The notes under the pieces are model-generated. The model was given only the letters and a program-made list of their open reading frames with translations. It made no database searches and was not told the origin of the DNA. Of a stretch of DNA of 64,000 nucleotides, positions 16,036-39,637 are shown in pieces (within the stretch, counting starts at the first letter, position 1; each line of letters begins with the position of its first letter). The translations under genes were made by a program, and so were the position numbers. The stretch is taken from NCBI RefSeq assembly GCF_000155595.1, contig NZ_DS989904.1, positions 3,986,786-4,050,785 of the forward strand, written 5' to 3'. This DNA is from Synechococcus sp. PCC 7335 (GTDB taxonomy: Bacteria; Cyanobacteriota; Cyanobacteriia; Phormidesmidales; Phormidesmidaceae).

Positions 16036-16424
16036 AGAAAGAAGAATGAGGTTTTGGATATAAAAGTTAACACGTTAATGGCAACACGACTTAGCTGGTA
16101 TCTAATAGTCGCGTTTCCTTAGTGTCCGCATTCTTTGCATCTTTTGAATACTTTTGTCCTGACCGTCAGCTTCACCGTAGAAGAGATGATTGGTAGATGC
16201 ACCCAATCGTTCCCTGATTCTCTTGTGAAGCTTTCACCCAAGAATTGGGGAATTTTTTTGAAAAGATTTGTTCATATAGAAAAGTAAGGATGCATTCTTA
16301 CTTTGCGGGAAGAGTTAACTGTTGCTCTGTAACAGTTTTAGCCGACAAGAATGTCCTAAGCAACTTTTTAAAAGCTGTAGCTACTGCCGAAAGTAGTCCA
16401 AAAGTACAGTTAACTCCAATAGAA
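16036..16424. other. Intergenic region upstream of the four-helix membrane protein
   Basis: About 390 bp. A TTG-initiated frame (16245-16454) exists but has Cys/Val-poor patterning, runs through the terminator hairpin and is not convincing. Otherwise only promoter sequence is expected. Confidence 0.45.
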
Positions 16425-17497: not shown

Positions 17498-17851
17498 TGT
17501 TCAACCTGTAAGGAATCGTTGAAAAGTCAGTAAGCCACACATATAGTAATGGCCAGATGCGTACTCTGCGAGCAGGCAAAGCCTACGGTCATTGCCGACC
17601 ACTTAGCTCTTCATGCATCAAGGGTTTCCAGCCCTAGAAAATGTGTGGAGCCAAGTGGCGAAAGCTATAGTTTGGCTGATGAGCGGGCACAAACAAATTA
17701 AGGCCAGTGCAACTGCCCAGATATCGCAGCAATCTAGCACCCTTCAGGCGAGTTGACTAGGGCTTATCAAACTATTTTTATTAATAAGTTCTTACTGTGT
17801 TTGTATCGGTACCGCGTTTGAGCAGTGAACTGACGCTTGACGAGTTATCAG
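17498..17851. other. Intergenic region with dispersed element copy 1
   Basis: Contains the two-hairpin element at 17542-17671 and, beyond it, about 180 bp of AT-rich sequence without a gene. Confidence 0.5.
17542..17671 (+). repeat. Dispersed two-hairpin element, copy 1
   Basis: About 130 bp, roughly 87% identical by eye to the reverse complement of 39509-39637. It starts TATAGTAATGG and ends GAAAGCTATAG. First hairpin: AATGGCC with GGTCATT. Second: CCACTTAGCTC with GAGCCAAGTGG around a small AGGG/CCCT hairpin. Both hairpins are also formed by copy 2. It may be a small non-autonomous mobile element or a structured RNA/DNA repeat. Confidence 0.75.
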
Positions 17852-28284: not shown

Positions 28285-28323
28285 CCTAGTGGGTGACTTG
28301 AGATCTTCAGGTTTGTCACTAGG
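28285..28323. terminator. Possible hairpin after ppk
   Basis: CCTAGTG / CACTAGG 7-bp stem with a long loop. Weak; no U-tract. Confidence 0.35.
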
Positions 28324-28450
28324 CAGATTTATCACGGTGCTAGCTAGGGTCCAGTTTTCTAACTAAAAGTCCAGCGACAAAAGCAGGCTAAGCGATTTAC
28401 GCTCCTTCTAAGAGCTTTTCTGCGGAGTATGCATCCGAGAAGCACTACCT

Positions 28451-38493: not shown

Positions 38494-39447
38494 TCAGCCT
38501 GCTAGATATTCACGCATATCGCTTTGTCGCTTACGTAGCTTTGTCAAAGCCTCTCGTTCGATTTGACGAACCCGCTCGCGGCTGATATCTAGCATCGCAC
38601 CAATCTTAGCTAGCGTCATATTTTTGCCATCTTCTAACCCGAAACGCAAAGCAATCACCTGTTGCTGCTGCGGTGTTAGATCAGCCATGATCCGCTTTAG
38701 ATCGCTCTTGAGCGAGGACGCAGTAGCATAATCATCTGGCGTTTGGCCGTCATCTTCCAATAGATCGCCTAGCTGAGTATCTTGATTGTCACCTACTTTT
38801 AGATCTAAAGACAGAGGCTGACGAGATCTGTCTAGGTACTCACGCACCTGCTTAATTGTAAAACCGGTGGCCTGGGCAATTTCGCTAGCAGTCGGCGTGC
38901 GTCCATGTTGCTGAGTAAATTGACGCTGAGCCTTTTTGATTTTGTTGAGCTTCTCAGTAATGTGAATAGGTAAGCGAATAGTCCGGCTTTTTTCGGCGAT
39001 CGCCCGCGTGATTGCCTGACGAATCCACCAATAGGCATAGGTACTAAACCGGTAGCCTTTTGAAGGATCAAACTTTTCTACGCCTCGCTGCATGCCAATT
39101 GTGCCTTCTTGGATCAAATCCAGTAGATCTACGTTGCGCTTGATGTATTTTTTTGCAACAGAAACAACCAGCCGCAGGTTCGCTTCCACCATTCTGTGTT
39201 TGGCCTGTTCACCTGCTGTAACAATAGCTGCTAGCTCGGCTTCAGAAATCCCTCCTGCTGCTGCCCACTCAGTGCGAGTGGGTTCACGATCCAAGGTGTC
39301 GACTAAGCTGCTATGAATCGCTATGAGCGACATCAGCTTCTGGACTTGCTTACCAAGAAGAATTTCTTCTTCGTGGGTTAGCAATGGCACACGACCAATT
39401 TCTTTGAGGTACGAACGAACGGGGTCCCTAGACGAATTAGCTTTCAT
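38494..39447 (-). CDS. Group 2 sigma-70 factor
   Basis: 317 residues. No region 1.1; regions 1.2 ([17 protein letters not shown]), 2 ([19 protein letters not shown] and [17 protein letters not shown]), 3 ([17 protein letters not shown]) and 4 ([18 protein letters not shown]) are intact. This is the group 2 (SigB/C/D/E-like) class of cyanobacteria, used for stress and light/dark adjustment; I cannot decide which of the four. ATG at 39447. A dispersed two-hairpin element lies 61 bp upstream, inside the probable promoter region. Confidence 0.92.
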
Positions 39448-39508: not shown

Positions 39509-39637
39509 CTATAGCTTTCGCCACTTAGCTCTACACATTCTCCAGGGCTGAAATCCTCGATGAATAAAGAGCTAATTGGTCAGCAATGACCGTAGGCTTT
39601 GCCTTCTCGCAGAGTATGCATCCGGTCATTGCTATAG
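39509..39637 (-). repeat. Dispersed two-hairpin element, copy 2
   Basis: Reverse-complement copy of 17542-17671. Ends in 7-bp inverted repeats CTATAGC / GCTATAG. Internal stem AGCAATGACCG / CGGTCATTGCT is perfect over 11 bp, and the second stem pairs AGAGCTAA with TTAGCTCT. Lies 61 bp upstream of the group 2 sigma factor start. Confidence 0.75.

Follow-up and report, generated by a model that had tools for sequence, protein, structure and literature searches.

The question raised by this locus is to what kind of element a two-hairpin sequence of about 130 bp belongs, which lies within the window, i.e., the whole stretch of 64,000 nucleotides (64 kb) analysed here. A first-pass annotation had described the sequence as present twice, in inverted orientation and with no open reading frame inside. 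Both copies were recovered by BLASTN and by a covariance model, at most two bases off the positions given for them: copy 1 (130-nt form, TATAG...GCTATA) occupies positions 17541-17670 on the plus strand, and copy 2 (likewise of the 130-nt form, with a loop insert at 39592-39615) positions 39509-39637 on the minus strand, such that the inverted orientation holds according to the covariance model. Their identity, estimated by eye at about 87%, amounts to 88% by BLASTN, both stems are retained in the two copies, and no gene is found within the element. However, the window contains four copies rather than two. Copy 3 (16274-16380, plus strand; 107-nt form without the loop insert) and copy 4 (28321-28450, minus strand; a diverged 130-nt form) were detected by covariance model, at E=1.8e-9 and E=4.5e-6, respectively, when model R1 (built from 27 copies) was run on the window, and at E=3.6e-18 and E=0.00098 when the wider model R2 (built from 85 diverse copies) was applied without filters. 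Copy 2 lies upstream of a sigma-70-family gene (38494-39447, minus strand), at a distance of 62 bp. An NsiR1-like small RNA (Rfam RF02399, 42.4 bits at a cut-off of 39) is matched at 16191-16259 of the window and ends near a run of T; copy 3 begins 14 bases 3' of this match.

The core of the element is 107 nt long. It begins with TATAGC and ends with GCTATA, and between these it contains hairpin I and, after a short joint, hairpin II, whose inner sequence is conserved. In this core form the hairpin I loop reads GGATGCATTC, and the 130-nt form of the window corresponds to the core with about 22-24 nt more in that loop. In copy 1, on the plus strand, the arms of hairpin I (P2) are situated at 17546..17554 (5' arm, GTAATGGCC) and 17587..17595 (3' arm, GGTCATTGC), those of hairpin II (P3) at 17599..17607 (5' arm, CCACTTAGC) and 17650..17658 (3' arm, GCCAAGTGG), and the right terminus GCTATA at 17664..17669, with its outer TA as the presumed target duplication. 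Among 172 copies (207 distinct matches minus short or gapped rows, with the subfamily of genomes G074 and G075 mostly left out because its hairpin I aligns with gaps), the termini TATAGC and GCTATA are conserved at 87-98% per position, and the inverted repeat that they form comprises six bases only.

Concerning the additional part of the hairpin I loop, a small repeat is found at 17563..17586 of copy 1 by pattern matching without mismatch; its minus-strand reading starts with GTAGGCTTTGCC, and the window's insert as a whole reads GTAGGCTTTGCCT(T/G)CTCGCAGAGT on that strand. It is missing from the 107-nt copies, and in subfamilies of other genomes this loop position is occupied by inserts that differ from it but resemble it. 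The insert of 24-25 bases also stands alone in six loci of two other genera (L097, L098, L099, L100, L101, and L102), in five of them identical to that of copy 2 and in the sixth with one change. Since it occurs there by itself and in hairpins of another kind, with the arms GTTGGGTT/AACCCAAC or close variants, it is a small repeat in its own right that has nested within the element and that prefers or tolerates hairpin loops. Elhai et al. reportedly described in 2008 very small mobile repeated elements of cyanobacteria that are nested in other repeats; the insert fits that class in size and nesting, whereas the complete element has about four times that length and ends of its own. In size and look the 24-nt insert also matches the GTAG-tagged repeats of cyanobacteria, as far as these are treated in the parts consulted of PMC3733652.

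This likeness bears on the idea that the element itself belongs to the REP/REPIN or IS200/IS605 type and is mobilised by a Y1 tyrosine transposase (RAYT), which we hold to be very improbable. According to the sections consulted of PMC3733652, REPs measure 20-40 bp and bear a GTAG or CGTC tag, and GTAG-tagged REPs and REPINs are high-copy intergenic hairpins that cyanobacteria possess as well, in most cases located between open reading frames in unidirectional or convergent arrangement. Hairpins at both ends and an insert resembling such a small repeat would agree with this, as would a tyrosine transposase of the REP-associated type in the genus (L164:1108-1878 in genome G003, a locus in which no copy of the element lies; 256 aa, 69.5 bits at a cut-off of 80). 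However, the element ends in TATAGC and GCTATA with neither tag, and only its loop insert starts with GTAG; unlike the REPs of that source, its 107-nt core thus lacks a terminal tag, and no link to Y1 transposases appeared here: among 20 Y1 loci scanned (from 25 Y1 hits in seven genomes), a single one has a copy nearby, and this is a decayed fragment. For an IS200/IS605 element neither inverted termini nor a target duplication would be expected, whereas the element possesses inverted TATAGC termini, and its abutting pairs (see below) favour a duplication.

As conditions that would refute its reading, the first-pass annotation had named a lack of further copies in the genome and a lack of stem covariation among relatives; neither applies. 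Concerning the former, the sequence occurs at more than 100 places of its own genome (5.97 Mb, 11 contigs). BLASTN yielded at least 30 copies (E<=0.001; 40 of 59 candidates scored), and model R1 gave 133 matches at E<=0.1, 118 of which remain at E<=0.001, a count based on rough E-values and including a few opposite-strand hits on one place. Within the family, R1 found matches in 26 of 63 genomes at E<=0.01 and R2 in 34 of the same 63 at E<=0.001. With 62 candidates scored per genome, R2 detected at least 62 copies each in the own genome, G002, and G004 and at least 61 in G003, followed by 57 in G075, 55 in G046, 52 in G074, 49 in G045, and 38 in G047. The element thus accounts for a repeat in about half of the family genomes searched, one that Rfam as searched leaves uncovered: at the gathering threshold the window contained NsiR1 alone, outside the element, and six loci at E<=5 gave one chance-level hit, also outside it.

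An exact motif pattern matched 12 stretches of named genomes, all from Phormidesmis sp. RL_2_1 or cf. Phormidesmis sp. LEGE 11477, which both belong to the genus of the window's genome. Across the phylum, a screen with a coarse first filter and 10 candidates scored per genome found matches in three of 386 genomes, the own one included. The remaining two, G437 and G268, are from other families and contain distant relatives, with one match in G437 and 16 in G268 at E<=1 (15 of these 17 were viewed). A strict pattern of the hairpin II motif hit two of the 386 genomes, i.e., G218, from a further family, and G268, and gave no match in the own genome. Plasmids, searched with one copy as query, and viral contigs, searched with two exact patterns, yielded no match, and in the open-licence literature the family was not found described. 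Subfamilies mostly differ between genomes, one cluster mixing two of them. The recent spread that had been suggested for the element is evident for some clusters only, e.g., for 11 near-identical copies in G003; copies 1 and 2 of the window are 88% alike.

As for the second point, the stems covary far above both controls, i.e., shuffled alignments and versions with slid pairing partners. In an alignment of 27 copies, 94.7% of the pair cells are standard, and 12 of 26 pairs have changed on both sides (57 cells compared with 15.9 in shuffles); the covariation score was reached by none of 500 shuffles and is destroyed when partners are slid. The 85 diverse copies show the same in larger numbers (93.7% standard cells, changes in both partners of 19 of 26 pairs, 400 cells versus 114.3 in shuffles, and a score of 0.476 versus 0.125, with none of 500 shuffles as high and slid versions at 0.057 or less); this alignment was fitted to the structure, such that its counts lean towards it, although the raw arms are plainly complementary nonetheless. 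Folding energy is more equivocal, with z-values against shuffles of -2.25 (plus strand) and -1.90 (minus strand) for copy 1, of -3.71 and -4.34 for copy 2, and of only -1.28 and -2.08 for a further copy, L025. For some copies the energy departs only moderately from that of shuffles; it is covariation that carries the argument for structure.

The two hairpins behave differently. Hairpin I is nearly free in sequence and mostly keeps its pairing: it occurs with 23 distinct perfect stems and is perfect in 48 of the 172 copies, compared with nine distinct perfect stems and 84 perfect copies for hairpin II. It diverges faster than hairpin II in all of seven clusters (85 copies), with values for hairpin I and II, respectively, of 0.091 and 0.050, 0.105 and 0.026, 0.083 and 0.045, 0.035 and 0.005, 0.093 and 0.031, 0.229 and 0.000 (the extreme case), and 0.033 and 0.011 in the seven clusters. 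The outer helix is as fast or nearly as fast as hairpin I in three clusters (0.086, 0.109, and 0.050), in two of which it even exceeds it (0.109 versus 0.083 and 0.050 versus 0.033). Double changes to another Watson-Crick pair were counted 28 times in hairpin I and not once in hairpin II, numbers that reflect few independent events. Matched changes of both arms, as in structural RNAs, suggest that folding matters for the spread of the element. Hammerhead-, retron-, and group II-like folds were dropped after consideration by eye only.

Under selection for folding of every single copy on one strand, G-T rather than A-C pairs would be expected to result from private mutations. Private single changes in pairs amount to 30 G-T versus 24 A-C over the three helices (12 versus 9 in hairpin I, 13 versus 6 in hairpin II, and 5 versus 9 in the outer helix), which gives no clear sign of selection for pairing on individual copies in these helices. 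The selection on structure that the first-pass annotation had considered is therefore supported by the compensatory changes of the stems but not visible at the level of single copies. Given no clear G-T excess, the constraint would act on lineages rather than on single copies, and it probably concerns those lineages that spread. Read most simply, lineages retain pairing as they spread, and copies lose it neutrally once they have been inserted.

The same numbers bear on the possibility that the element is a regulatory RNA of the host or serves to stabilise transcripts, its function accounting for its retention at each site. Its covariation is RNA-like, and it is mostly intergenic: of the 78 own matches that were inspected, 71 share at most 20 bases with any open reading frame of at least 90 aa. 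For 65 of these 71 both neighbours were called, and both flanking genes point towards the element in 30 of them (convergent, +,-, i.e., upstream gene sense and downstream gene antisense relative to the element), compared with 16 arrangements with both genes antisense (-,-), 12 divergent ones (-,+), and 7 with both genes sense (+,+), counts that refer to mechanically called neighbouring frames and come without a baseline. Nevertheless, the orientation to genes is not consistent, the private mutations do not favour pairing, the subfamilies are mostly genome-specific apart from the one mixed cluster, and Rfam gave no match, such that a host function at each site appears highly unlikely.

Concerning the insertion target, the flanks of the 172 copies follow the pattern A-T-n-TATA-n-A-T, with G at 61% immediately to the right of the element. 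Four pairs of abutting copies, each sharing one TATA, were read (L063, L070, L118, and L223). In all four an outer end reads TATATA (TACATA in L118), as a duplication of TA predicts, whereas such outer ends occur at a base rate of 18 of 172 on the left and 10 of 172 on the right. In L063, L070, and L223 it is ambiguous which copy arrived second, and the extra TA could also be plain flank. Duplication of TATA and insertion without duplication were considered as well; L118 favours TA most clearly, the other pairs being ambiguous. No orthologous empty site was found. The abutting copies and the flanks fit an insertion at TA as known for IS630/Tc1-type transposons; by these signs, an insertion of the element at TA with duplication of TA, the unit then being TAGC...GCTA, is supported but not proven.

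Elements of the IS630 family are indeed present in the own genome, as five near-identical copies (99.8-100%) of about 1.2 kb (L302, L305, L308, L310, and L312). They are bounded by TATAGCCATCC...GGATGGCTATA, with the ends TATAGC...GCTATA, and contain two overlapping open reading frames near a run of A, which, searched apart, score 65.6 and 98.5 bits against a model of the IS630 transposase (cut-off 100). This IS630 was probably active recently. Related multi-copy IS end in TATAGTCATCC...CGCTATA in G048 and in TATAGCAATCC...TGCTATA in G050; in G005, TATAGCCATCC and GGATGGCTATA are situated at the expected places, and in G045 and G039 the right end has GCTATA where it is expected. In this comparison, which excludes a pair from G021 that gave no anchor and covers other IS630 groups with only part of their inner ends, the terminal repeats common to the element and the IS630 group comprise the outer six bases only. 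The left end of the element weakly resembles IS630 ends (33 of 152 versus 13 of 760 shuffled, with copies that are not independent). Its right end beyond TATAGC is unlike them, given that none of 141 reached a score reached by 39 of 705 shuffled sequences.

The distributions of both do not coincide either: this IS630 was found in 12 of 60 genomes but not in the element-rich G002 and G003, and it has five copies in G050, a genome without any match to the element. Among 739 stop-to-stop frames in the neighbourhood of copies (155 loci reaching 1-1.5 kb to each side, some of them the same place under two identifiers), none of the 15 largest clusters was transposase-like as judged by eye; the top cluster, from 10 loci, looks like signalling proteins, also by eye. 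A transposase of the IS630 type is the likeliest kind of driver, suggested by the shared ends and the TA target but not demonstrated. The unlike right end and the mismatch of genome distributions count against an IS630 driver, and since the terminal repeats, as tested against one IS630 group, are not shared beyond the outer bases, the element is not filed among the IS630-derived MITEs.

With 107-130 nt, no gene, terminal inverted repeats, and many dispersed, mostly intergenic copies in either orientation, the element has several features of a MITE. The family is real and structured and appears to be mobile, and its kind is MITE-like; it is best read as a family of non-autonomous elements that is new, structured, and similar to MITEs. 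We consider it rather probable that each copy is such a non-autonomous element, inserting at TA, served in trans by a transposase of the IS630/Tc1-mariner type, and with pairing kept in the source lineages. Acting in trans, such a transposase (most likely of that type) would move the element as DNA, copies with paired hairpins would spread better, such that source lineages would retain the pairing, and each inserted copy would then decay without visible selection on pairing. Some points count against this explanation: hairpin I is perfect in no more than 48 of 172 copies, the outer helix is as variable in some clusters, and the abutting pairs are few and not complemented by an orthologous empty site. 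Moreover, pairing of hairpin I would be unnecessary for a transposase binding to double-stranded DNA.

The last point leads to the alternative that the element depends on its structure for mobilisation, i.e., that one strand folds as single-stranded DNA or RNA and is mobilised by, e.g., an unknown nuclease or a reverse transcriptase, the IS630-like ends being secondary. We regard this as unlikely, yet as considerably less so than a REP or a host RNA. Recognition of double-stranded DNA does not explain why hairpin I, nearly free in sequence, is yet mostly paired, and changes shared among copies point in the same direction for hairpin I, with 23 G-T versus 4 A-C on the plus strand. Those of hairpin II lean opposite, with 3 versus 15; both counts represent few independent events without a consistent strand, and by cells the mismatches amount to 117 G-T versus 41 A-C in hairpin I and to 56 versus 53 in hairpin II. 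Against a single-stranded intermediate, the palindromic flanks and the signs of a TA duplication point to double-stranded insertion. Concerning a route by reverse transcription, three of 30 aligned own copies are clearly truncated (L015, L023, and L021), of which two are shortened on the 3' side and one on the 5' side; target-primed reverse transcription would lead one to expect a 5' bias, which is not seen. An improbable, though not negligible, combination is that spread requires the element's own fold, such that a hairpin I constrained in pairing and nearly free in sequence would be recognised together with the sequence-conserved hairpin II as single-stranded DNA or RNA during transposition, while insertion takes place at TA as in Tc1/mariner.

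As regards size, number of copies, and target, the element comes closest to RUP, the repeat unit of pneumococcus, with 107 bp, 108 intergenic copies, and TA targets according to the parts of PMC2229807 consulted, where mobilisation in trans by the transposase of IS630-Spn1 is proposed. Whereas RUP is reported to share its terminal repeats with IS630-Spn1, the element shares just TATAGC with its IS630, and no structural motif is reported for RUP in those parts of PMC2229807, whereas both hairpins of the element covary. Nezha, named in passages of PMC3733652 and PMC10969869, is a cyanobacterial MITE, the kind that the element resembles. The portions consulted of PMC10969869, a 2024 review of prokaryotic MITEs, mention stem-loops in transcripts and contain nothing on compensatory change.

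The unusual part of the present family is its hairpin I, which covaries, has an almost free sequence, and for the most part retains its pairing in lineages that spread; the interior of the element covaries as strongly as structured RNAs do. MITEs are usually explained by their ends alone. Nezha has terminal repeats of about 23 bp and a parent of the IS630 type. What reads the fold during transposition is a directly testable question, for which many natural variants exist.

Two minor observations concern the build of single copies and their surroundings. At L139:1001-1079, a copy lacks hairpin II and retains its ends and hairpin I, as if the hairpin had been deleted during replication. In Phormidesmis sp. 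RL_2_1, tandem short repeats adjoin copies of the element (L044, reverse strand, around 1350-1400; L032, reverse strand, around 1375-1420), with the units ATCTAGCGGTTTGC and AAATGGCCAAAGCTT, whose bases resemble the first or last ones of the element.
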